From: Actinobacteria bacterium 69-20
GTDB taxonomy: Bacteria; Actinomycetota; Actinomycetes; Mycobacteriales; Nakamurellaceae
Assembly (NCBI GenBank): GCA_001897425.1
Contig: MKSW01000040.1
Span: 74,051-138,050 of the forward strand
DNA length: 64,000 nt
Reading direction: 5' to 3'
Of the stretch, positions 28,384 to 43,494 are shown piece after piece; within the stretch, counting starts at the first letter, position 1, and every line of letters starts with the position of its first letter. The translations under genes were made by a program, and so were the position numbers. A model generated the notes under the pieces. That model was given only the letters and a program-made list of their open reading frames with translations. It was not told where the DNA came from and did no database searches.

Positions 28384-28402
28384 TGTTCAGTATGTCTAAA
28401 CA
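28384..28402 (+). promoter_or_regulatory. Regulon operator, site 3 (M24 operon/XRE regulator)
   Basis: TGTTCAGTATGTCTAAACA lies in the 156-bp gap between the XRE-cupin gene (minus) and the M24 hydrolase gene (plus), 53 bp before the latter's ATG. It shares the first 10 bases TGTTCAGTAT with site 1 and has the same ACA end. Confidence 0.75.
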
Positions 28403-28454
28403 TCTAGCGCGTGGGAGCGGCCGCGGCGATATCGCTTCGCGGAAGGAGCGTCAT

Positions 28455-29786
28455 ATGACCGTTCGAACCTTCGGCACCAACGCCGTCGACTGGGAACAAC
28501 GTATCGACCTGGATCGCCTGCGCACCGAACGGCTGGCGAGACTCCGTGCCACGCTTGACGCTTCGGAACTCGGGTCGCTTCTCACCTTCGATTTCGCGAA
28601 CATCCGGTACATGACGGCGACGCACATCGGCACGTGGGCAATGGACAAGCTGATCCGCTTCGCGGTACTTCCTCGCGGCGGCGATCCGGTGCTGTGGGAT
28701 TTCGGGTCGGCGGCCAAGCACCATCAGTTGTTCAACCCCTGGCTCGATGGCGACAAGCGCGCCCGCGCAGGCATTTCCACGCTGCGGGGCGCCTTCAACC
28801 CGGAAGCCGGCATCGCCGAAGATGTCGCCCAGAAGGTCGCCACGGTGCTGCGCGAGCACGGGCTGGCTGATGCGCCGATCGGCGTGGACCTGGTCGAGAT
28901 GCCAATTCTCGCGGCGCTGCAGGCCGAGGGGCTCACGGTGGTCGACGGCCAGCAGGTATTCCTCGAGGCGCGGAAACACAAGACGGTGGACGAGATCTCG
29001 CTGCTCACCCAGGCCTGCTCGATGGTGGACGCGGCCTACGAGGACCTCTACGAGTTCCTGCGGCCGGGGGTGCGTGAGAACGAGTGTGTGGGCGTGGTTT
29101 CCAAGACGCTCTACGATCTCGGCAGCGAATACGTGGAGGGTGTGAACGCGATTTCCGGCGAACGCTGCTCACCGCACCCACATGTGTACTCGGACCGGTT
29201 GATGCGGCCGGGCGACCCGGCGTTCTTCGATATCCTGCACAGCCACATGGGCTACCGCACCTGCTACTACCGATGCTTCGCCGTCGGCAGCGCCTCGCCG
29301 GCGATGCGGGATGCCTACACCCGCTGCCGCGAGTACATGGACGAGGCGATCGCGCTGGTCCGGCCGGGCGCGACGACGGCGGACATCGTCTCGGTGTGGC
29401 CCACGGCGCAGGAGTTCGGGTTTCCCAGCGAGGAGGCGGCGTTCGCATTGCAGTACGGCCACGGTGTGGGGCTGTCGATCTGGGAGAAGCCGATCTTCTC
29501 GCGGTTGGTTTCGCTCGACCACCCCGAGACCCTTGAGGAAGGAATGGTTTTCGCGCTGGAGACATATTGGCCGGCCGGAGACGGCTGGTCGGCAGCCCGC
29601 ATCGAGGAGGAGGTCGTGGTGACCGCCGACGGCTGCGAGGTCATCACCAAGTTCCCCGCTGAGGAGCTGCTGGTGGCCGGTCGCCGGTACTGGTCGGTCA
29701 GTGGGCCGTTGCCGAGTATCCGGGAATCGCAATCGCATCTGAACACGGCTGCCGGGCGCGGCGAGAAGAAGGGAGCCCATTCGTGA
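28455..29786 (+). CDS. M24-family (creatinase/prolidase-fold) hydrolase
   Basis: This 443-aa protein has the N-terminal creatinase domain (SLLTFDFANIRYMTATHIG) and the C-terminal pita-bread domain. Conserved late elements are present: YGHGVGLSIWEKPIF (His), EEGMVFALETYW (Glu) and ARIEEEVVVTADGCEVIT (Glu). In the first metal cluster, FFDILHSHMGYRTCYYRCF has one Asp where M24 peptidases have two spaced Asp ligands, and the second is lost. That points to an altered-metal or metal-free C-N hydrolase rather than a peptidase, as in creatinases or DddP-like relatives. It is the first gene of a six-gene operon behind operator site 3, with a strong AAGGAG ribosome binding site. Confidence 0.85.
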   Translation: MTVRTFGTNAVDWEQRIDLDRLRTERLARLRATLDASELGSLLTFDFANIRYMTATHIGTWAMDKLIRFAVLPRGGDPVLWDFGSAAKHHQLFNPWLDGDKRARAGISTLRGAFNPEAGIAEDVAQKVATVLREHGLADAPIGVDLVEMPILAALQAEGLTVVDGQQVFLEARKHKTVDEISLLTQACSMVDAAYEDLYEFLRPGVRENECVGVVSKTLYDLGSEYVEGVNAISGERCSPHPHVYSDRLMRPGDPAFFDILHSHMGYRTCYYRCFAVGSASPAMRDAYTRCREYMDEAIALVRPGATTADIVSVWPTAQEFGFPSEEAAFALQYGHGVGLSIWEKPIFSRLVSLDHPETLEEGMVFALETYWPAGDGWSAARIEEEVVVTADGCEVITKFPAEELLVAGRRYWSVSGPLPSIRESQSHLNTAAGRGEKKGAHS

Positions 29787-30679
29787 CCGATCACCTCGTC
29801 GCCCGCGCCGCCGATGCGGTGTGGTTGCCGGCGGGCGGCGCACTCGTGGATGCCACCGGCTACCTGGGCTGGTCCGCTGTCGGCGCCGAGAGCGCCGCCG
29901 TGCACACGGGTTTCGGCCTCGGAAGGATGAACCCGGGCGGCCGAATCCCCTGGCATGTGCATTCCTACGAGGAGAGTCTGCACGTCACCGCCGGCGAGGT
30001 GATCGTGCAGACTCCGGAGGGCGCGGTGCTGCTTGCCGCCGGCGACTACGGGCTCATCCCGATCGGGGTGCCGCACGCGCTGCGCAACGTGGGGACGGCG
30101 CGTGCGGAGTGGGCCCGCTGCTCCGCTCCCGCTCCGCGGGCGGCGCATCACGGCGATACCGAGGCCGTTCCGGCCCGGCCCGATGTCGCCCCGATCCGTG
30201 TTGATGTCCGCGATCCGCGTACCCGCAACTTCGGGCACGTCGCGCCGGAGCACATGGATCGGGACCGGCAGGGACAGGAGAACCTCGCCGTGTCGGCGTC
30301 CATGCGCACGGCTCTTCTTGTCTACAGCGGGATCTCGCTGAAGATGATGGTGGACACCGATCTCGGCGCCACCCAGGCCAACATGTTCATGGTGCAGTAC
30401 GAGCCGGGCGGGCTAGCCTCGCCGCACGACCACCCGCTGGAGGAGACCTACTACGTGACGGACGGAAGCGTGCTCGCGACGTTCGACGGGACCGAATACG
30501 ACTTGCACGCGGGCGATATCGCCTGGGCCGGTGTGGGTTGCGTGCACTCGTTCCGCAACATCACCGACACCACCGTGACGTGGCTGGAAACCCAGTCCCC
30601 ACTGCCTCCGTTGCGGCATGCCTACCGCTTCATGCGCGACTGGGACTACCTACGGGACGCCTTGAAATCGGAATCCTGA
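29783..30679 (+). CDS. Bicupin protein
   Basis: This 298-aa protein carries two cupin domains. The first has IPWHVHSYEESLHVTAGEVIV and PIGVPHALRNVG. The second has SPHDHPLEETYYVTDGSVLA and GCVHSFRNI. The His/His/Glu/His metal sets are present in both. The layout resembles bicupins such as ureidoglycine aminohydrolase or ring-opening dioxygenases, but no substrate can be assigned. The GTG start overlaps the stop of the M24 gene (GTGA), so the two are made together and may act in sequence. Confidence 0.82.
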   Translation: MTDHLVARAADAVWLPAGGALVDATGYLGWSAVGAESAAVHTGFGLGRMNPGGRIPWHVHSYEESLHVTAGEVIVQTPEGAVLLAAGDYGLIPIGVPHALRNVGTARAEWARCSAPAPRAAHHGDTEAVPARPDVAPIRVDVRDPRTRNFGHVAPEHMDRDRQGQENLAVSASMRTALLVYSGISLKMMVDTDLGATQANMFMVQYEPGGLASPHDHPLEETYYVTDGSVLATFDGTEYDLHAGDIAWAGVGCVHSFRNITDTTVTWLETQSPLPPLRHAYRFMRDWDYLRDALKSES

Positions 30680-30724
30680 ACACCGACGACGGACACACCC
30701 CCCACGAAACGGAGCAGCTTCGTC

Positions 30725-31411
30725 ATGACCACGGTAGTGATCGGCGGAACCGCCGGTATTGGCTTGGAATTCGCGCGGTCTCGGGCGGCAGCGGGGCGCG
30801 CTGTAGTGATCTCCGGTCGGGATGCGGACCGCGCGAACAAGGCCGCGGCCGACATCGGTGCCCGCGCCGTCATCGTCGACCTGGCCGATCCGAAGTCCAT
30901 TGCCGGCGCTCTGGCCGGTGTGGGCAACGTCGATGAATTGGTCTTGCTCGCCATCGATCGTGACAGCAATAGCGTCAAGGGCTATGACATCGATCGGGCG
31001 ATCGGGCTCACCACGATCAAGCTGGTCTCGTATATCGAGACGGTGCATACGCTCCTTCCGCGGATGACGCCGGATGCCGCGGTCGTGCTGTTCGGTGGCC
31101 GCGCGAAGGACAAGCCGTACCCGGGGTCGACCACCGTGTCCACGATCAACGGCGGCGTGATCGGCATGGTGAATACGCTGGCGATCGAGCTGGCGCCCAT
31201 CCGGGTCAACGCGATCCATCCCGGCATTGTCGGCGACAGTCCTTACTGGGCAGCCAAACCCGTGGAGCTGCTAGACGGGTATCGCGCACGCACCCCGACC
31301 GGTGTGCTGGCCACCATGGCCGATGTGGTCGACGCGATCGACTTCCTGCTGCGCAACAAATCCATGAACGGTCAGCAGATCGGCATCGACGGCGGCTGGA
31401 TGTTGACGTGA
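30725..31411 (+). CDS. SDR-fold protein lacking the catalytic Tyr-x3-Lys
   Basis: This 228-aa Rossmann protein has VVIGGTAGIGLEFARSRAAAG at the start (TGxxxGIG type) and LAIELAPIRVNAIHPGIVGD late. Aligned on that late segment, the position of the catalytic Tyr-x3-Lys reads VSTIN (V138, N142), so both Tyr and Lys are lost. It may bind NAD(P)(H) without classical SDR chemistry, or use another mechanism. It closes with GQQIGIDGGWML as normal SDRs do. It is 45 bp after the bicupin gene and its stop overlaps the next start. Confidence 0.85.
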   Translation: MTTVVIGGTAGIGLEFARSRAAAGRAVVISGRDADRANKAAADIGARAVIVDLADPKSIAGALAGVGNVDELVLLAIDRDSNSVKGYDIDRAIGLTTIKLVSYIETVHTLLPRMTPDAAVVLFGGRAKDKPYPGSTTVSTINGGVIGMVNTLAIELAPIRVNAIHPGIVGDSPYWAAKPVELLDGYRARTPTGVLATMADVVDAIDFLLRNKSMNGQQIGIDGGWMLT

Positions 31412-32400
31412 CAGTTCCACAAGCCGGCGGCAAGGCGCTCGTCGGGTCACCTTCCGGTTTGATCGAGCATGACGTCGTTCTGGCATCGGCCGGTCTGCCG
31501 CGCGTAGCCGTGCTCGGGATGGGCCGGATGGGCGGCGCGATGGCGAAGCGCCTGCGGGAGAAGGGTTTCCCGGTCGCCGTCTACAACCGCAACGCCGACC
31601 GTGCCCGGGAGGTCGCCGGCGAGATCGGTGTCGCGGTGCTGGACAGTCCAGCGGCGGCGGGCCGGTGGGTCGCGGGCGACGGCGGAAGCAACGGGGCGGC
31701 ATTTGGCGTCGTGCTCACCTCGCTCGCGGACGATAATGCCTGTCGCGCGGTGTATCTCGGCCCGAACGGGCTCGTATCGGGACCCGGTGCCGGCACCGTC
31801 GTCTGCGATACCTCCACCATCGACCCGGACACTGCGCGGGAGTTGGCCGCGGCCGTCGCCGAGCGCGGCGCGACGATGCTGGACAGCCCCGTGTCCGGGA
31901 GCGTGCCCGCGGCGCTTTCCGGCGGGCTCACCGTGATGGTCGGCGGGCCGGAATCTGCGCTTGAGAATGCGCGGCCGGTGCTGGAGGCGATCGGGCGCCG
32001 GGTGGTGCACGTAGGCCCGTCGGGCGCCGGGGCCGTCGTCAAGCTCGCCGTCAACAACGTCGTCCATGCACTCAACCAGGCGCTCTCCGAGTCGATCGTG
32101 CTCGCCGAAAAGGCCGGTGTCGATAGGGCCGTGTTCTATGACGTCATCGCCGACAGCGCCGCGGCGGCCCCGTTCGTCGGCTACAAGCGGGCCGCCTTCG
32201 AGCACCCCGAGAACGCGCCGGTCGCGTTCAGCCTCGACCTGGTGGCGAAAGACCTCCGGCTGATCCTCGCCCTCGCCGAGCGGGTCGGAGCCGCGATGCC
32301 CGCGGCTCAGGCTGCCAGTTCCGCTGCGGCCGAGGCGATCTCGCACGGCTTCGGCGACTCCGACATGAGCTCCATGGCCCGCCACCTGCGTGACGCTTGA
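31408..32400 (+). CDS. Beta-hydroxyacid dehydrogenase (3-hydroxyisobutyrate dehydrogenase-like)
   Basis: This 330-aa protein has the Rossmann motif VAVLGMGRMGGAMAKRL, VVCDTSTIDPDTARELA, the substrate loop DSPVSGSVPAALSGGL and the catalytic-Lys helix GAVVKLAVNNVVHALNQAL. It should oxidise or reduce a beta-hydroxyacid with NAD(P). Some 30 residues at the N-terminus precede the usual start and carry a one-mismatch dispersed word (31464-31480). The GTG start overlaps the SDR stop. Confidence 0.87.
   Translation: MTVPQAGGKALVGSPSGLIEHDVVLASAGLPRVAVLGMGRMGGAMAKRLREKGFPVAVYNRNADRAREVAGEIGVAVLDSPAAAGRWVAGDGGSNGAAFGVVLTSLADDNACRAVYLGPNGLVSGPGAGTVVCDTSTIDPDTARELAAAVAERGATMLDSPVSGSVPAALSGGLTVMVGGPESALENARPVLEAIGRRVVHVGPSGAGAVVKLAVNNVVHALNQALSESIVLAEKAGVDRAVFYDVIADSAAAAPFVGYKRAAFEHPENAPVAFSLDLVAKDLRLILALAERVGAAMPAAQAASSAAAEAISHGFGDSDMSSMARHLRDA
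31464..31480 (-). repeat. Dispersed 17-bp word, one mismatch, in an N-terminal extension
   Basis: CGAGCATGACGTCGTTC on the plus strand encodes IEHDVVLA in the segment before the Rossmann fold of the dehydrogenase. Confidence 0.5.
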
Positions 32401-33865: not shown

Positions 33866-34879
33866 TCAGCTTTGGCGCAGCCGCGACCACGCGTCGGTGC
33901 CGACCGCGACCAGCAGGATGATGCCGAGGGTGATCTGCTCGTAGAGCGGGTCGAGCCCGAGCAGGTCGAAGCCGTTGCCCACCAACGCGATGAACAACAC
34001 GCCGACCACGGTGCGCCAGATCGCGCCGGCGCCGCCGAGGATCGATGTGCCGCCGACCACGATCCCGGTCAACACCAGGAACGTCAGGGTGTTGCCGCCG
34101 GACGACGACTGCGCGCTGAGAACCCTTGAGGTGTCGATGATCCCGCCGAGCGCGGCGGCGGCGCCGTTGATGGTGAAAGCGAGGATGACGACGAAGTTGA
34201 TACGGACACCGGCCAGTCGCGCAGCCTGCGCGTTGCCGCCGGCGGCGTAGATGTAACGGCCGTTGGTGGTCCGCGACAGCAGCAGGCCCAGCACGATGAT
34301 CACGGCGAGCGCGAGCCAGATCGACATCCGCACACCGAGGAACTGAGTCTGGGCGATCTTCGCGTAGGCCGGCTGGTTGGTGAGAACGATGAGGTTGCCG
34401 TTCGACAGCTTCGCCGCGATCCCGCTGAAGATGAGCGCGGTGGCCAGCGTCGCGATGAGCGAATTGACCCGGAAGAAGGTGGTCACAATGCCGTTGATCA
34501 GGCCCGCGACGATGCCCAGCGCCATGCCGGTGACGATGCCGAGCGCGACGCCGTGGCTCACCGCGACCTGCGCAGAGACCACCGCCGATAGGGCGTAGGT
34601 GGCGCCGACGGACAGGTCGATCCCGCCGGCGATCAGCACGAGCGTGCTGGCCACCGCGATGATCAGCACGGCCGACTGCTGGTCGGCGATATTCAGCAGG
34701 TTGCTGGTGGTCAGGAAGGGCCCGCTCGCCACCGACAGTACGACGAACAACACGACGAAGGGCACCACGATGGCGGCGGACCGCCAGGATCGGATGTGCA
34801 ACGCCTCCGATATGCCGGTGCGTGCGCCGGCTGGCGGCAGCTCGCTGTGCGTTTCGGGAGTCTTGGTGTTCGTTGTCAT
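33866..34879 (-). CDS. Ribose-type ABC transporter permease
   Basis: This 337-aa permease has about 8-10 transmembrane helices and the RbsC-family signature LVLIAGGIDLSVGATYALSA. Further marks are NSLIATLATALIFSG and GGTSILGGAGAIW. It forms the membrane channel with the ATPase and binding protein encoded upstream. The ATG overlaps the ATPase stop (ATGA). The substrate is not necessarily a sugar; in this family it may also be a purine or another polar molecule. Regulation is presumed through the operator before the binding-protein gene. Confidence 0.93.
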   Translation of the reverse strand: MTTNTKTPETHSELPPAGARTGISEALHIRSWRSAAIVVPFVVLFVVLSVASGPFLTTSNLLNIADQQSAVLIIAVASTLVLIAGGIDLSVGATYALSAVVSAQVAVSHGVALGIVTGMALGIVAGLINGIVTTFFRVNSLIATLATALIFSGIAAKLSNGNLIVLTNQPAYAKIAQTQFLGVRMSIWLALAVIIVLGLLLSRTTNGRYIYAAGGNAQAARLAGVRINFVVILAFTINGAAAALGGIIDTSRVLSAQSSSGGNTLTFLVLTGIVVGGTSILGGAGAIWRTVVGVLFIALVGNGFDLLGLDPLYEQITLGIILLVAVGTDAWSRLRQS

Positions 34880-36450
34880 GATGATGCCTTCTCCGGCTCC
34901 GCGCGTGTGGGCCCCGCCTGTTCGGCGAAGGCAGCGGTCAACACAGCCTGGTTCGTCATCTCCGAGCCGCTCAGTTCGGCGGCCACTCGCCCGCCGCGGA
35001 TGACGACGACGCGGTGGGCGAGCCCCAGCACCTCCTCGATGTCCGAGGAGATCACCAGTACTCCGACCCCACGGGTGGCCTGCTCCACGAGCAGGTCGTA
35101 AATGGCGCGGCGCGAGCCGACGTCGACGCCGCGGGTCGGCTCGTCGGCGATCAGCATGCAGGGCCGGCAGAGCAGGGCGCGCGCGAAGAGCACCTTCTGC
35201 TGGTTCCCGCCCGACAATGCCGATACCGGAACGGAATTCCGCGCCGCGCGGACGGTCACCGAGGCAAGCGCGTCGGACGCGGCTTTCCTTTCGGGCCCGC
35301 GCCGGATCCAGCTGCCGACGCTGAACGAGCGCAGGCTCGCGAGCGTGGCGTTCTGGGTCACCGACCGGTCCAGGAAAAGGCCCTGCTCCTTGCGCGACTC
35401 CGGCACCAGGGCCACCCCGCGGCGCAGCGCGACGGTCGGCGAGCGGCCGTATAGCCGCTCGCCGCGGACGGCGACCGTCCCGGCCGTGGCTCGCGCCGCA
35501 CCGAGGATCGCGTGCGCGATCTCGCTTCGACCGGCGCCGACAAGCCCTGCGAGACCGACGATCTCGCCGGCATGGACGGTCAGGTCGACACCGTTCACTC
35601 CCGGCGCGCGCAACCCGCTCACCTCGAGCACCGGGGGCGAACCGTTGGGCGCGTCCGGCTTGGCCGGAAACACCGAACCGAGGGTGCGGCCGAGCATCCC
35701 CTCGATCAGCGAACTCTCGGTCTCCACCGCGGACGGGCCGGTGCGCACCAGGTGGCCGTCACGCAGGATGGTCACGGTGTCCGCGAGGCTCAGCACCTCC
35801 TTCAAGAAGTGCGAGACGAAGAGCACCGTCCGCCCCGTGCGGGCGAGAGTGCGCACCACCTCGTGCAGCCGCTGCACGTCCGAGCCGCTGAGCGCCGCCG
35901 TCGGCTCGTCCATGATGATCAGCGACGCGCGGCGAGACAGCGCCCGCAGGATCTCGACCTTCTGCCGGTCGGCGGTGCGCAAGGTGGACACAACCGCATC
36001 CGCCTTGAGGTCGAACCCCGCTTCCGCGACCAAGGTGTTGAACTGCGCTCGCAGCGCGCGGCGGCGGATGAAGCCGCCGCGCCGGGGCTCGGAGCCGAGG
36101 AACACGTTCTCGGCGACCGTCAGACTCGGTACCAGCTCGAGTTCCTGAGCAATGCTCGCGATGCCGCGGGCGAGGGCGTCGCGGGGGGAGTGCAGGATCG
36201 CCGGCGTACCGTCGATCCGCACTTCCCCCGCGTCCGGCATGATCAGCCCGGCGATCACCCGGCTGAGAGTGGACTTCCCAGCACCGTTCTCGCCGACGAG
36301 TGCATGGACCGAGCCGCGCGCGATGCTCAGGTTGACCCCGGACAGGGCGCGCACCCCGCCGAAGCCCTTGTCCACGGCGACGATGTCCACGTAGGACTTT
36401 GCGGTGGGTGCGCTACCCGCGGCCACGGTGCTCGTCCCCTGACCGTCCAT
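34876..36450 (-). CDS. Ribose-type ABC transporter double ATPase
   Basis: This 524-aa protein has two fused nucleotide-binding domains, as in RbsA. The first has Walker A GENGAGKS at 53-60 and IIMDEPTAAL, with a degenerate signature RTADRQKVEILRAL. The second starts LEVSGLRAPGVNGVDL and has LSGGNQQKVLFARALLC and IADEPTRGVD. As in many family members, the second Walker A (GLVGAGRSE) is degenerate. It powers uptake through the adjacent permease. It lies 50 bp downstream of the binding-protein gene. Confidence 0.94.
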   Translation of the reverse strand: MDGQGTSTVAAGSAPTAKSYVDIVAVDKGFGGVRALSGVNLSIARGSVHALVGENGAGKSTLSRVIAGLIMPDAGEVRIDGTPAILHSPRDALARGIASIAQELELVPSLTVAENVFLGSEPRRGGFIRRRALRAQFNTLVAEAGFDLKADAVVSTLRTADRQKVEILRALSRRASLIIMDEPTAALSGSDVQRLHEVVRTLARTGRTVLFVSHFLKEVLSLADTVTILRDGHLVRTGPSAVETESSLIEGMLGRTLGSVFPAKPDAPNGSPPVLEVSGLRAPGVNGVDLTVHAGEIVGLAGLVGAGRSEIAHAILGAARATAGTVAVRGERLYGRSPTVALRRGVALVPESRKEQGLFLDRSVTQNATLASLRSFSVGSWIRRGPERKAASDALASVTVRAARNSVPVSALSGGNQQKVLFARALLCRPCMLIADEPTRGVDVGSRRAIYDLLVEQATRGVGVLVISSDIEEVLGLAHRVVVIRGGRVAAELSGSEMTNQAVLTAAFAEQAGPTRAEPEKASS

Positions 36451-36500
36451 CGCCCGTCCTCGATCCGTACCGTCGATTTCCGCCTATGACGTAGCAGCGA

Positions 36501-37658
36501 TCAGCCGGGCCATTCCGCGGTGAACTGGCTGGCGTTCCCCTTCGTGACGATGCCGTTGTTGGGGAGATCGGCCGCCGGATCGACGGCGCCCTGGTCTTGA
36601 CCGGTGCGGATCGCCGTGATGAGCGCCTTCATACCCAGCCGACCGGTCGAGGCGGGCGCCTGCGCGACGTCCGAGTACCAGCCGCCGCTTGCCACTCCGG
36701 CGACCGCCGCCGCGCTGGCACCGTAGCCCACGAGCAGGATCTGGCCGGTCTTCTTCGCGGCGGCCAGTGCCTCGACAGCGCCCTCGATACCCTGGTCGGA
36801 GCCGACGATCAGGCTCAGATTCGGCTGCGCTGTCATCATGTTCTGCGTCGCGGACAGTCCGCCGGCAGGCGTGAAGTAGCTCTGCCCCTCGGCGACCACC
36901 TTGACCGATGGGGTCTGTTTGATCGCCGCAGTGAACGCGTCGTTGATCGCGACATCCAGTGTGGACGCCTTGATGTCGTACAGGTACCCGACGTTGCAGG
37001 GATTCAGGTTCTTCGAGGCGCACGCCTCGACCACCTGCTGGCCCATCTTGGTGCCGATCACGGTGGGCACCATGATGACGTTGGCCGACAGCCCCGGCAC
37101 CTGCACGTCGCCGATCGAGTAGTCCGAGCCCATCACCTGGTCGATGTTCACCACTTTGATGCCCTTCGCGGTCGCCTGCGAGACGAGGCTGGTCAAGCCG
37201 GTGCCGAGGATCGGCTGCGTGATGATGCCCTGGTACTTACCGGACGTGATGGCGTTCTGGAACTGGCTGAACTGGGTCTTCGCATCGTTGTTCGCGTCGA
37301 ACACCGTCACCTTGGCGTTGTTGTCGGCGGCGACCGCCTGCGCGGCGGCCAGCATCGGTGCGTCGTAGGAGTTGGCCACCGCAAACGACAGGTATGCGAT
37401 GTTGATCGGCTGGTCATTGGTCGTCGGGGCGGCCGACCCGCTCGGCGAGCCGCTGCCAGCATCCGCCGAACTCGGCGAACTCGATCCACTCGACACGCTG
37501 GATCCCGCGTCGCTGCTCGCCGAGCTATCGTTCGTTCCCGAACTGGGCCCCGGGCTCGTTCCCGAGCTCGCGGCTGAACTACAGCCGGCCATGGCGACGA
37601 TCGCGGCGACCGCGATGATCACATGCGCGACATTCCTTCGTTTCCATACTCGGAACAT
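36501..37658 (-). CDS. Periplasmic-type sugar/small-molecule binding lipoprotein
   Basis: This 385-aa protein has a lipoprotein signal: basic residues WKRR, a hydrophobic stretch VIIAVAAIVAMAG and Cys26. A Ser/Gly-rich tether of about 50 residues follows, then a RbsB-type binding domain (NIAYLSFAVANSYDAPMLAAA, LIVGSDQGIEGAVEAL, VGYGASAAAVAGV). It captures the substrate outside the membrane for the permease and ATPase. ATG 37658 is chosen because AAAGGGAA lies upstream and the signal peptide begins there. Operator site 4 is 114 bp upstream. Confidence 0.92.
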   Translation of the reverse strand: MFRVWKRRNVAHVIIAVAAIVAMAGCSSAASSGTSPGPSSGTNDSSASSDAGSSVSSGSSSPSSADAGSGSPSGSAAPTTNDQPINIAYLSFAVANSYDAPMLAAAQAVAADNNAKVTVFDANNDAKTQFSQFQNAITSGKYQGIITQPILGTGLTSLVSQATAKGIKVVNIDQVMGSDYSIGDVQVPGLSANVIMVPTVIGTKMGQQVVEACASKNLNPCNVGYLYDIKASTLDVAINDAFTAAIKQTPSVKVVAEGQSYFTPAGGLSATQNMMTAQPNLSLIVGSDQGIEGAVEALAAAKKTGQILLVGYGASAAAVAGVASGGWYSDVAQAPASTGRLGMKALITAIRTGQDQGAVDPAADLPNNGIVTKGNASQFTAEWPG

Positions 37659-38347: not shown

Positions 38348-39046
38348 TCAGGTCACGTCATCACCCCCCGCCTCTACATCGAAGACCTCGGGATGAAGCG
38401 CCAGCGAGATGCGGGTGCGGCGGATGTGTGCGGTGAGAAAACGCTCGCCGTCGGAGATATCGCGCCGCCGAATCGCATCGATGAGCAGACGGTGCTCGGC
38501 GTTGACCACCCACATGCGCTGCGGACCGGTGACCCGCACGAAGGCACGCCGGTACGACTGAGTGGTGTCCCAGAAGCGCTGCACCATTCGGTTCAGCTCC
38601 GCGATCGGGTTGCCCGCGTAGCAGAGCAGGTGAAGTTCCCGGTCGAGCTCCAGGAATCGATCCTGGTCGTCGTTCGATTCGATCTCACGCTGCAGCGCAT
38701 CGATATCGTTGAGCACGTTGGCGTCCAGGTGCGGGATGCTCTCGGCCAGCGCCAGTGGTTCGAGTCGCTCCCGCATCTTGTAGATGGCCTCGCATTCGGC
38801 GAGGTCGAGCCGGGACACCCACGCGCCACTACTCGCTTTGAGCTGGATCAGGCCCTGGGAATGCAGGATTCGCAAGGCTTCTCGGACCGGCAGCCGACTC
38901 GCGCCGAACTGGGCGGCAACCTCCTCCTGGCGAATCCGCTCACCCGGTTGAAGTACGCCGGACAGGATGTCCTCCCGCAGTTGGCCGGCGATGCGCTGGC
39001 TGGCGACCGTTGAGGTGCTGACGGTTTGGATGACGTCGCTCGTCAC
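38348..39046 (-). CDS. GntR-family regulator, FadR/FCD type
   Basis: This 232-aa regulator has an N-terminal winged helix at about 14-80 (QRIAGQLREDILSGVLQPGE, then QFGASRLPVREALRIL) and an all-helical FCD effector domain with the metal-type residues in DRELHLLCY, NAEHRLLIDAI and TAHIRRT. The GTG at 39046 overlaps the stop of the VOC gene (GTGA), with AAGGAG upstream. It likely binds the ATTGGATCCAAT-like palindromes 630-770 bp upstream and controls both its own VOC-GntR unit and the divergent E1-E2 genes. The effector may be a small organic acid. Confidence 0.9.
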   Translation of the reverse strand: MTSDVIQTVSTSTVASQRIAGQLREDILSGVLQPGERIRQEEVAAQFGASRLPVREALRILHSQGLIQLKASSGAWVSRLDLAECEAIYKMRERLEPLALAESIPHLDANVLNDIDALQREIESNDDQDRFLELDRELHLLCYAGNPIAELNRMVQRFWDTTQSYRRAFVRVTGPQRMWVVNAEHRLLIDAIRRRDISDGERFLTAHIRRTRISLALHPEVFDVEAGGDDVT

Positions 39047-39609
39047 GTCGTCTCCTTCGTCGTGACGTCGCCGGCTGGCACCGCGGTCCCTGCGGCGGCC
39101 TTCTCGGCGAGGTAGAAGGCGCGGCCGTGGGGGTAGGAGACGAGCTCGAACTGGAGGCCCCACGGGGCCAGAAAATACACCCAGCGCTGGCCCAGGTGCG
39201 GGCCTGAGCTGACCGTCGGCTCCCCCAACACGGTGACGCCCTGTTCGCGCAGGTAGGCGACAGCGGCGTCGAGATCGTCGACGTACAAGGCGATGTGGTG
39301 TCCACCGACATCGCTGTTGCGCGGAGGATCGGTGCGTTGGTCAGGAGCGGTGTACTGGAAGACCTCGAAGACGGGGGAGCCGCCGCAACGGAAGAAGCGT
39401 AGTTCCGGGCAGGCCGCGCGCGGGTGGATATTCAGGTGCTCGGTCATCCAGTTGCCGGTCTCGTCGACCATCGGGCCGAGGGAGTAGAGGTATTCGCAGC
39501 CCAGCACGTCGACGAGAAACCGCGTGGCCTCCTCGAGATCGGGCACCGTGATCCCGACGTGGTCCATGCGCGCCAAACCGGGTAGTCCGCCGGTAGATGC
39601 GTCCGTCAT
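39043..39609 (-). CDS. VOC (glyoxalase/bleomycin-resistance fold) protein
   Basis: This 188-aa protein has two VOC modules: DHVGITVPDLEEATRFLVDVLG and, after the FFRCGGSPVFEVFQYTAP segment, HHIALYVDDLDAAVAYLREQGV with LQFELVSYPHG at the end. The His/Glu pairs (H17, the E in FEVF, the second-module H, the E in FELV) fit a metal centre used by lyases, epimerases and dioxygenases of this fold. It is coupled to the GntR gene. A role in making a 2-oxoacid for the E1-E2 complex is only inference from context. Confidence 0.83.
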   Translation of the reverse strand: MTDASTGGLPGLARMDHVGITVPDLEEATRFLVDVLGCEYLYSLGPMVDETGNWMTEHLNIHPRAACPELRFFRCGGSPVFEVFQYTAPDQRTDPPRNSDVGGHHIALYVDDLDAAVAYLREQGVTVLGEPTVSSGPHLGQRWVYFLAPWGLQFELVSYPHGRAFYLAEKAAAGTAVPAGDVTTKETT

Positions 39610-39679: not shown

Positions 39680-39710
39680 ATTGGATCCGATGATCGCGGT
39701 TGGATCCATT
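39680..39710. promoter_or_regulatory. Tandem GntR-type operators upstream of VOC-gntR
   Basis: ATTGGATCCGAT (39680-39691) and GTTGGATCCATT (39699-39710) have centres 19 bp apart, about two helical turns. Both contain the TTGGATCC core and are near palindromes of the type bound by FadR/VanR-like GntR proteins. Confidence 0.7.
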
Positions 39711-39807
39711 GTGTTAGGTTGCAGTAGAGGATGCGCGTCATAAAGCAGCCTGTCAAGCCCCTATCGACAAGCCGCCACATCCCGACTACAGTCGGCGCAA
39801 CGATGCG

Positions 39808-39819
39808 ATTGGATCCAAC
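39808..39819. promoter_or_regulatory. GntR-type operator upstream of E1-E2
   Basis: ATTGGATCCAAC holds the perfect 10-bp palindrome TTGGATCCAA. It lies 99 bp before the E1 ATG and 109 bp from the centre of the nearest tandem site, so looping between sites is possible. Confidence 0.7.
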
Positions 39820-39917: not shown

Positions 39918-42101
39918 ATGAGCAGTCTGACCAACCTCACCGCATCCGAGCCCTGGGTCGAACTCGCCGTCACCGACGAGGACTGGGACGCGGCCGACCC
40001 GCAGCTGCTGAAGGCCATATTCAGCCAGCTGGTGTTGATCCGGTCCTTCGAGGAATACGTGCTCACCCTGGCGGGCGAGGGACTGGTGCACGGACCCGCT
40101 CACTCGAGCATCGGTCAAGAGGGCGGTGCCGTGGGCTCCATCCTCCCGCTGCGCACCGCCGACACCGTCAACGGCTCACACCGAGGGCACCATCAGTTCC
40201 TGGCCAAGGCCCTCGGTCACGTCGCGCCGGACGGCATCGACCCGACAGCGGAGCTGCCGCCCGCCGTCCGCACCGTGTTACAACGCAGCCTGGCCGAGAT
40301 CTGCGGTCTGGCAAGGGGTTACTGCCGCGGCCGCGGCGGCTCCATGCACCTGCAGTGGAAGGAAGCCGGGGCCATGGGCACCAATGCCATCGTCGGTGGC
40401 GGCGTGCCACAGGCGCTGGGATTCGCGTTCAGCCACAAGCGAGCGGGAACGGATGCGGTGTCGGTCACGTACTTCGGCGACGGCGCCATCAACATCGGCA
40501 GCGTCCTGGAATCCTTCAACTTGGCGGCGGCGTGGTCGCTGCCGGTGTGTTTCTTCGTGGAGAACAACCTGTACGCGGTCTCGACCCACGTCGACGAGTC
40601 GGCGGCGGAGACCCGGCTGTCGGCGCGCGGACCCGGCTTCAAGATCCCGAGCTGGCGGGTCGACGGAATGGACCCACTCGCCGTGCACACGGCCATGGCG
40701 CAGGCGCTGGACGTCATGCGCAACGGCGGCGGCCCCACCCTCATCGAGGCCGAGGTCTATCGGTATTTCCACCAGAACGGCCCGTTCCCCGGCAGCGCCT
40801 TCGGATATCGCAGCAAGAAGGAAGAGCAGGCCTGGCGGGCGCGAGACCCGTTGGCACGCACCGAGGATCACCTGGTCCGGCGCGGGATCCTGACGCGCGC
40901 GCAGGTCGATTCCGCCGTCGAAAGTGCAAAGTCCACCATGGCGGCGATCGGTGATGAGCTCACCGAACCGGTGGCGGGCGGCAAGCCCGGCAAGCGACAG
41001 ATCAAGCCGTCCGAATGGCCCGACCCGTCGTTCGTCGACGTGGGCATCCGCGGCGACCTGTCCGAGTTCGCGGGCGCGCCGATGGCCGACTGGGACACGT
41101 TCACCGGCGAGATGGCAGACCGATCCTTCATCGAGGTGGTCGCCGAGGTGATGGGCGCCGCGATGGACGCCGACGAGCGCATCGTGATCCTCGGCGAGGA
41201 CGTGCACCGGTTGGCCGGCGGCACCAACGGCGCGACGAAGGGCCTGCCGGAGAAGTACCCGGACCGCGTGTTGGGCACGCCGATCAGCGAGAATGCGTTC
41301 TCCGGAATGGGCGGCGGCATCGCCCTGGACGGCCGCTACCGGCCGGTGGTCGAGCTGATGTACGCGGACTTCCTGTGGGTGGCGGCGGACCAGCTCTTCA
41401 ACCAGATCGGCAAGGCGCGACACATGTTCGGCGGCGACAGCGCGGTACCGGTGGTGTTCCGCGCCAAGTCCGCAGCCGGCGCCGGTTACGGCTCGCAGCA
41501 CTCCATGGACCCTGCGGGCATCATCGCGACCTCGCCCGGTTGGCGGATCGCTGCTCCGACAACGCCTTTCGACTACGTCGGCATGATGAACAGCGCGCTT
41601 CGCTGCCAAGATCCGGTCTTTGTGATCGAGCACGTCGACCTGTACTCCTCGACCGGCCCCGGACCGGTCAAGGATCTCGACTACTGCATCCCGATCGGCA
41701 AGGCGCATGTGCGGCGGGAGGGCAGGGGCATCACCGTGCTCACCTACCTGTCGATGGTGCGGCATTCGCTGCAGGCGGCCGAACAGGTTCCGGAGGCGGA
41801 CGCCGAGGTGATCGACCTCCGGTGGCTCGACCGCGCAAGCGTCGACTGGGACACCATCGGGGAGAGCGTCAAGAAGACCAACAACGTACTCATCGTGGAA
41901 CAGGGAGCGCTCGGGACCTCTTATGGGGGTTGGCTTTCCGACGAGATCGGGCGGAGGTTCTTCGACTGGCTCGACCAACCGGTGCAGCGGGTGACGGGCA
42001 GCGTCGCGTCGCCGAGCATCAGCAAGGTCCTCGAGCGCGCCGCGATCGCCCGGACCGAAGAGGTGGTCGACGCGCTGCGTGAATACAACCCTCGCCGCTG
42101 A
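39918..42101 (+). CDS. Fused E1 alpha-beta subunit of a 2-oxoacid/acetoin-type dehydrogenase
   Basis: This 727-aa protein joins both E1 chains. Residues 1-about 370 are E1 alpha: GSHRGHHQFLAKALG, RGRGGSMHLQW, and the thiamine diphosphate site YFGDGAINIGSVLESFNLA with VENN. Residues about 400-727 are E1 beta: SFIEVVAEVMGAAMDADERI, GEDV, PISENAFSGMGGGIALDG and MYADFLWVAADQLFNQIGK. It decarboxylates a 2-oxoacid or cleaves acetoin and passes the acyl group to lipoyl-E2. Substrate unknown. It is followed at 31 bp by its E2. No E3 (lipoamide dehydrogenase) is present here, so one from elsewhere must be used. Confidence 0.9.
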   Translation: MSSLTNLTASEPWVELAVTDEDWDAADPQLLKAIFSQLVLIRSFEEYVLTLAGEGLVHGPAHSSIGQEGGAVGSILPLRTADTVNGSHRGHHQFLAKALGHVAPDGIDPTAELPPAVRTVLQRSLAEICGLARGYCRGRGGSMHLQWKEAGAMGTNAIVGGGVPQALGFAFSHKRAGTDAVSVTYFGDGAINIGSVLESFNLAAAWSLPVCFFVENNLYAVSTHVDESAAETRLSARGPGFKIPSWRVDGMDPLAVHTAMAQALDVMRNGGGPTLIEAEVYRYFHQNGPFPGSAFGYRSKKEEQAWRARDPLARTEDHLVRRGILTRAQVDSAVESAKSTMAAIGDELTEPVAGGKPGKRQIKPSEWPDPSFVDVGIRGDLSEFAGAPMADWDTFTGEMADRSFIEVVAEVMGAAMDADERIVILGEDVHRLAGGTNGATKGLPEKYPDRVLGTPISENAFSGMGGGIALDGRYRPVVELMYADFLWVAADQLFNQIGKARHMFGGDSAVPVVFRAKSAAGAGYGSQHSMDPAGIIATSPGWRIAAPTTPFDYVGMMNSALRCQDPVFVIEHVDLYSSTGPGPVKDLDYCIPIGKAHVRREGRGITVLTYLSMVRHSLQAAEQVPEADAEVIDLRWLDRASVDWDTIGESVKKTNNVLIVEQGALGTSYGGWLSDEIGRRFFDWLDQPVQRVTGSVASPSISKVLERAAIARTEEVVDALREYNPRR

Positions 42102-42132: not shown

Positions 42133-43494
42133 ATGCCTTCACTGCTTCGCATGCCCGCACCGGCCGCCGGTGCGGAAGAGGCCATGCTCTTGGAATGGTC
42201 GGTCGACGAGAAGGCCGAGTTCGCCGAGTCCGACGTGCTGCTGGTGATCGAGACCGACAAGGCCGTGATCGAAGTCGAGGCGGAGTCCGACGGGGTGCTG
42301 CATCGTCGGCTGGTGCCGGCCGGCGAACGGGTGGCGGTCGGCACGCCGCTCGCCGTCATCGGGTCCCCGGGCGATAGCGCGGAGGTGATCGCGGGCCTCG
42401 TCGCGCAGGCGTCCGGCGGTCAGGCAGCAAGTGAACCGCCTATGACGAAGGATCCGGTCCCAGCCCCTCCGACAGCGCTCGCCCCCGCCGCGCCGGCCCC
42501 GACCGGGCCTGTTCCGCAGGCTGTTGGAACGTCGATCGACGGTGCGGCATCGCGCGACATCGCCGGATACGGAAGGATTTTCGCCAGCCCGATAGCGCGC
42601 CAAATGGCGAAGACCGCCGGGATCACGCTGACGGAACTCGCCGGAACCGGCCCCGGCGGCCGGATCGTGCGCCGGGATGTGGAGGCCGCTGTAGCGCGGC
42701 GCGACAGTTCGTCGGCGCCGGCTGCATCGGCTCCCGCAGGTGCCCCCGCAAGCGGATCCGCGCCGAGCGCTCGGCGGACGGGCGCGGCGGACCGAACCTT
42801 TACCGACGAGCCGCATTCCAAGGTTCGCGCCGCCATCGCCTCCCGGCTGACCTTCAGCAAGCAAACCGTCCCGCATTTCTACGTGCGGGCGACGCCACAG
42901 GTCGATGCGCTCCTGGCGCTGCGGGCGGAGCTCAACTCTGGTCGCGTGGATGGCGAACCGAAGGTGTCCGTCAACGATCTCGTGGTGCGCGCCGTGGCGC
43001 GTGCCCATCGCCTGGTGCCGGCCATGAACGTCACCTTCGGAGACACCGCCACGAGGCACTACGACTTCGTGGACGTGGCCGTCGCCATCGCCACCGACGG
43101 CGGCTTGGTCACGCCCGTGCTGCGCGATGTGGATCGATTACCGCTCAGCGAGATTGCCGCTGCCACCGCCGATTTCGCCAGCCGCGCGCGGAACGGAAGG
43201 CTCCGCCAGCAGGAGCTGGAGGGCGGCAGCATCACCGTCACCAACCTCGGCATGTTCGCCGTCGAGGAGTTCGCCGCCATCATCAACCCACCGCATTCGG
43301 CGATCCTGGCGGTCGGTGCGGCCCGCCTCGAACCGGTGGCGGTGGAGGGCGCGAACGGACCCGAACTCGCGGCGGCACGTGTCATGCACCTGGTGCTGTC
43401 CGTCGACCACCGCGCGGTCGACGGCGCTCTCGCCGCACGCTGGATGGCCGCCCTCACCGACTTGCTCGAACACCCGGTCCGCATTCTGACCTAG
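42133..43494 (+). CDS. Lipoyl E2 acyltransferase of the 2-oxoacid/acetoin dehydrogenase
   Basis: This 453-aa protein has a lipoyl domain with ETDKAVIEVE (lipoyl Lys43), a Pro/Ala linker, the E1/E3-binding domain (IFASPIARQMAKTAGITLTE and GTGPGGRIVRRDVEAA), another linker, and a catalytic domain ending with SVDHRAVDGALAARWM, where His and Asp of HxxxDG act in acyl transfer. The lipoyl region departs from the usual DKA pattern only slightly. It moves the acyl group from the fused E1 to CoA. Confidence 0.92.
   Translation: MPSLLRMPAPAAGAEEAMLLEWSVDEKAEFAESDVLLVIETDKAVIEVEAESDGVLHRRLVPAGERVAVGTPLAVIGSPGDSAEVIAGLVAQASGGQAASEPPMTKDPVPAPPTALAPAAPAPTGPVPQAVGTSIDGAASRDIAGYGRIFASPIARQMAKTAGITLTELAGTGPGGRIVRRDVEAAVARRDSSSAPAASAPAGAPASGSAPSARRTGAADRTFTDEPHSKVRAAIASRLTFSKQTVPHFYVRATPQVDALLALRAELNSGRVDGEPKVSVNDLVVRAVARAHRLVPAMNVTFGDTATRHYDFVDVAVAIATDGGLVTPVLRDVDRLPLSEIAAATADFASRARNGRLRQQELEGGSITVTNLGMFAVEEFAAIINPPHSAILAVGAARLEPVAVEGANGPELAAARVMHLVLSVDHRAVDGALAARWMAALTDLLEHPVRILT

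Follow-up and report, generated by a model that had tools for sequence, protein, structure and literature searches.

Three VanR-type palindromes between divergent VOC-gntR and E1-E2 operons of a soil actinobacterium as candidate operators of the adjacent FCD-type GntR regulator

The window analysed here, a 64 kb stretch of DNA from a soil actinobacterium (genus Nakamurella), contains two divergent gene pairs, one encoding a VOC family protein and a GntR-family regulator, the other the E1 and E2 components of a 2-oxoacid dehydrogenase. Three palindromes had been proposed between them, at 39680-39819, and all three sequences were found at these positions. Could they be the operators through which the regulator controls both gene pairs?

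The genes and the palindromes of the locus

The features of the locus are listed below; distances to predicted starts assume that transcription begins 7 bases after the -10 hexamer.

38348-39046, minus strand: regulator of the GntR family, 232 aa, carrying an FCD domain (both Pfam domains, GntR and FCD, score above cut-off)
39043-39609, minus strand: VOC family protein, 188 aa (Pfam Glyoxalase_4/Glyoxalase), first gene of the VOC-gntR operon
39680-39691, no strand: candidate operator 1, ATTGGATCCGAT, outer site on the VOC side, midpoint at about +35 relative to the predicted start of VOC-gntR
39699-39710, no strand: candidate operator 2, GTTGGATCCATT, inner site on the VOC side, midpoint at about +16 relative to the predicted start of VOC-gntR
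39728-39756, minus strand: predicted VOC-gntR promoter, TTGACA-17-CATCCT, matched by the scan in the sister species, with the same hexamers in the window
39764-39792, plus strand: predicted E1-E2 promoter, TCGACA-17-TACAGT, the one match of a consensus scan (shuffles give 0.1)
39808-39819, no strand: candidate operator 3, ATTGGATCCAAC, on the E1 side, midpoint at about +14 relative to the predicted start of E1
39918-42101, plus strand: E1 of a 2-oxoacid dehydrogenase, 727 aa, in which alpha and beta are fused (Pfam E1_dh, Transket_pyr, Transketolase_C)
42133-43494, plus strand: dihydrolipoamide acyltransferase E2, 453 aa (Pfam Biotin_lipoyl, E3_binding, 2-oxoacid_dh)

The VOC and gntR genes overlap and form one operon, the GTG start codon of gntR sharing bases with the VOC stop codon as GTGA. 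Both domains of the regulator scored over their cut-offs, the N-terminal GntR winged helix with 63.8 bits (PF00392) and the C-terminal FCD domain with 67.7 bits (PF07729). The motifs LDRxxH, EHR and HIRRTR, which we take to carry the Asp and the three His conserved as metal ligands in FCD domains, are retained in nearly all of 30 aligned homologues.

All three palindromes lie just 3' of the two predicted back-to-back promoters and differ from ATTGGATCCAAT by one or two bases. Operators 1 and 2 are 19 bp apart from centre to centre, so that the "two helical turns" of the original prediction are only approximate (1.8 turns), while the 109 bp given for the third palindrome, near the E1 promoter, matched the distance from operator 2 (10.4 turns). 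The outer pair, operators 1 and 3, is separated by 128 bp, near 12 turns.

Within the window, the pattern TTGGATCC occurs only at these three operators. Its four strand-matches are equalled or exceeded in 10 of 100 shuffles, a count that ignores clustering. Genome-wide it is present at about 50 places in 4.48 Mb, and the chance expectation for three of them within 138 bp is about 6e-5 per genome. The stricter pattern WTTGGATCCRAY was found, genome-wide, only at operators 1 and 3. No enrichment of the 10-mer TTGGATCCAA with up to two mismatches was detected across the window (9 against 11.5 expected), indicating that the signal lies in the cluster and its conservation and not in general abundance.

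Conservation of the site together with the regulator

Relatives carrying gntR were gathered from the same order and from named genomes, giving 22 VOC-E1 intergenic regions, of which 20 are distinct (the duplicates being L012 = L024 and L017/L033). The window and most relatives have the regulator in one of two divergent arms and the sites between the arms. A site with a TGGATCCA core was present between VOC and E1 in all 22 regions. The suggested check, whether the sites are conserved next to orthologous gntR-VOC and E1-E2 genes, is thus positive in 20/20 distinct loci. A site with at most one mismatch to ATTGGATCCAAT occurred in 15 of the 22 regions (mean of shuffles, 0.005), and one with at most two mismatches in 20 (shuffles, 0.16). 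At the three-mismatch level, one site was counted in L013 and L034, three in Nakamurella and two elsewhere. The exact ATTGGATCCAAT, present in G122, L020, L025, L028, L029 and L065, is also the consensus of the relatives' sites. Ochrobactrum carries ATTGTATCCAAT and ATTGGATACATT between E1 and VOC.

As controls we used seven loci from an independent VOC search, in genomes giving no gntR hit at 1e-30 (G220, G017, G080, G158, G032, G152 and G053). All have E2 at least in part; G080 and G032 are of the same genus as the window, and two of the seven loci are divergent like that of the window. The site was absent from all seven of these VOC-E1 loci when 8-12 kb was read around each. The association of site and gntR gave a Fisher p of about 1e-6, uncorrected for phylogeny, and p-values taken over relatives overstate the evidence, since these share ancestry. 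The converse arrangement was met in Actinoplanes (L028), where gntR stands without VOC or E1, adjoining molybdenum-hydroxylase-like genes, and yet has next to it two exact ATTGGATCCAAT sites spaced 52 bp. Together with the seven site-less controls, this locus indicates that the site goes with the regulator rather than with the enzyme genes.

The motif was absent from three alphaproteobacterial homologues with 43-50% identity (L066, L068 and L069) and is thus not universal in the wider family. In one of them, on the Salipiger abyssi plasmid pPABY2 (L066), a VOC-GntR pair without TTGGATCC lies beside pqqABCDE and an ABC transporter. A phylum-wide gntR search returned no further locus.

Likeness to VanR, predicted promoters and spacing of the sites

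The palindromes had been described as fitting FadR/VanR-like operators. For VanR the fit is exact at the level of the consensus, since the VanO operator of Caulobacter crescentus, which contains a BamHI site (PMC4920640), is ATTGGATCCAAT (PMC7970624), but it is only partial for FadR regulators in general, whose usual boxes are TKGT/ACMA (PMC4494728), whereas the sites read here are TTGG/CCAA. VanO operators have been placed 3' of promoters in engineered use, as the present sites lie 3' of predicted starts. The targets differ. VanR controls vanillate demethylase; here E1-E2 and VOC take its place, and no vanAB genes were seen beside the locus. By analogy, the regulator may work like VanR at the DNA level, a likeness that concerns the operator sequence and carries no claim of orthology to VanR. 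A search for a published synthetic VanO promoter among E. coli genomes, with an approximate query sequence, found nothing.

The layout, with the regulator in one arm, the enzymes in the other and at least two palindromes between, is that of FadR-subfamily divergons. One established class of this subfamily has two sites at a constant distance, which has been interpreted as cooperative control of the two operons (Suvorova et al. 2015, PMC4494728); the Nakamurella locus differs in having three sites, with TTGG/CCAA half-sites.

Comparison with the sister species (G122/L024, a Nakamurella MAG whose GntR is 94% identical to that of the window, the ground for placing the host in this genus) located the conserved bases. 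All four promoter hexamers are identical (24/24 bases), as are 33/36 operator bases, but only 64/97 positions in the stretch between operators 2 and 3. Operator 2 is unchanged (12/12), the counterpart of operator 1 is ATTGGATCCAGT, and that of operator 3 is the exact ATTGGATCCAAT, as in several relatives. The VOC-gntR promoter, with its weak -10 hexamer CATCCT, is a tentative assignment, and promoter scans in more distant relatives gave an inconsistent picture.

On this sequence evidence we estimate a probability of about 0.9 that the adjacent FCD-type GntR protein, acting as a repressor, uses the three palindromes as its operators; it would switch both its own operon and E1-E2. The regulator would bind as a dimer at each site, in the early transcribed region: on operator 3 for the E1-E2 promoter, on operators 1 and 2 for the VOC-gntR promoter, back to back with it. 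As long as no effector is present, both operons, and with them the regulator's own gene, would stay off. The repressor would be released by an effector that the FCD domain binds together with a metal and that is probably a carboxylate akin to the substrate of the dehydrogenase. The proposed GntR control of both divergent units is supported by the presence of sites at two predicted divergent promoters. Cooperation between dimers on the two sides, which would sit on the same face of the helix, is probable and may involve a short loop; the DNA looping originally suggested is plausible in view of the phased sites in relatives.

Alternatively, the sites may act independently, operator 3 on E1-E2 and operators 1 and 2 on VOC-gntR, as separate roadblocks. 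Each set stands at its own predicted promoter, the distance in Nakamurella is large (109/128 bp), and independent sites form the larger published class of FadR-subfamily divergons (71/100, PMC4494728). However, paired sites in relatives keep spacings of 62-66 or 73-76 bp (6 or 7 turns), with 52 bp (5 turns) in L028 and 83 bp (8 turns) in L067, and the outer pair in Nakamurella (127/128 bp) is also near 12 turns. Measured on a 10.5 bp helix, these spacings fall close to whole numbers of turns (R=0.82), with p about 2e-7 if each locus counts as independent and 0.007 if each value is used once. This speaks for cooperation on the same face or a small loop, although the spacings of operator 2 (19 and 109 bp), not being integral numbers of turns, fit less well. 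Separate action of the sites is thus a possibility to be taken seriously, if a somewhat doubtful one.

Activation, rather than repression, of one operon is improbable. Some FadR-type regulators both activate and repress, but sites 3' of the predicted starts occupy the position of a repressor. It is more improbable still that another FCD-GntR protein binds these sites in place of the adjacent one: the host genome has 18 FCD-type regulators, but site presence tracks this gntR orthologue, including at L028 where gntR is alone. That the palindromes arose by chance, or as functionless BamHI-type sequences (the window has 33 copies of GGATCC), has a negligible probability and is already contradicted by the footprint: the extended 10-12-mer forms a cluster nowhere else, is retained in several families and goes together with the regulator. 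Repression by the adjacent regulator is the reading we retain, and the sequences lend good support to an ordinary type of switch, in which the locus would be a self-regulating FCD-GntR divergon whose operators are of the VanR type.

Candidate regulon and its meaning

Sites were also found before other genes. Plasmid pR1CP1 of Rhodococcus opacus 1CP (L064) has two pairs. The sites of one, between E1 and gntR, are spaced 64 bp; those of the other, spaced 62 bp, stand where an SSADH-lpdA (E3) operon begins, and the second of them overlaps the annotated SSADH start. A site precedes an MFS transporter in Citricoccus (L065) and an aldehyde dehydrogenase (ALDH) in Streptomyces NBC_01450 (L070), and a pair precedes a second VOC in G077. 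In the Nakamurella genome, three TGGATCCA-like places (C2:57360, C3:338324 and C42:8242) were rejected, none being clearly upstream of a related catabolic gene, as was a TTGGATCC site near an FCD regulator at C37, which falls within an open reading frame and whose palindrome does not extend further.

Several neighbouring genes deserve mention in their own right. Genes for 2Fe-2S and molybdopterin-binding (xanthine dehydrogenase-like) subunits lie 3' of gntR in L025, L027, L028, L029, L030 and L035, followed in several of these loci by a carboxymuconolactone-decarboxylase-like gene; both were named by eye from translations. In the window, a ribose/arabinose-type ABC transporter (permease, ATPase and binding protein, 33866-37655) directly adjoins gntR, with no TTGGATCC site before it; its ATPase and binding protein are present in the sister species too. 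Further along, at 28392-32400, lie in a row an M24 metallohydrolase, a bicupin, an SDR and a 3-hydroxyisobutyrate-dehydrogenase-like gene. The metallohydrolase is DddP-like, with 130 of 600 bits, far under the DddP cut-off. The site-bearing VOC of L071 is likewise adjoined by M24, cupin and ALDH-like genes (assigned by eye), which suggests a single catabolic locus.

In the library of papers searched, none dealt with this gene set. We lean, with some reserve, towards a so far undescribed regulon, widely spread in actinobacteria and partly in alphaproteobacteria, in which helically phased VanR-type operator pairs would control the fused-E1 2-oxoacid dehydrogenase, VOC, SSADH-E3, a molybdenum hydroxylase and transporters of a catabolic pathway. 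The identity of the operator with VanO, which is used in synthetic biology, possibly calls for caution over orthogonality. The natural spacing variants (about 5, 6, 7, 8 and 12 turns) offer material for studying cooperation between FCD-GntR dimers. For a 2-oxoacid dehydrogenase locus occurring in several actinobacterial families, the palindromes provide a precise candidate operator, which may be used to define the regulon of this uncharacterised pathway, and the same motif flags further candidate pathway genes, namely SSADH, E3 and a transporter.
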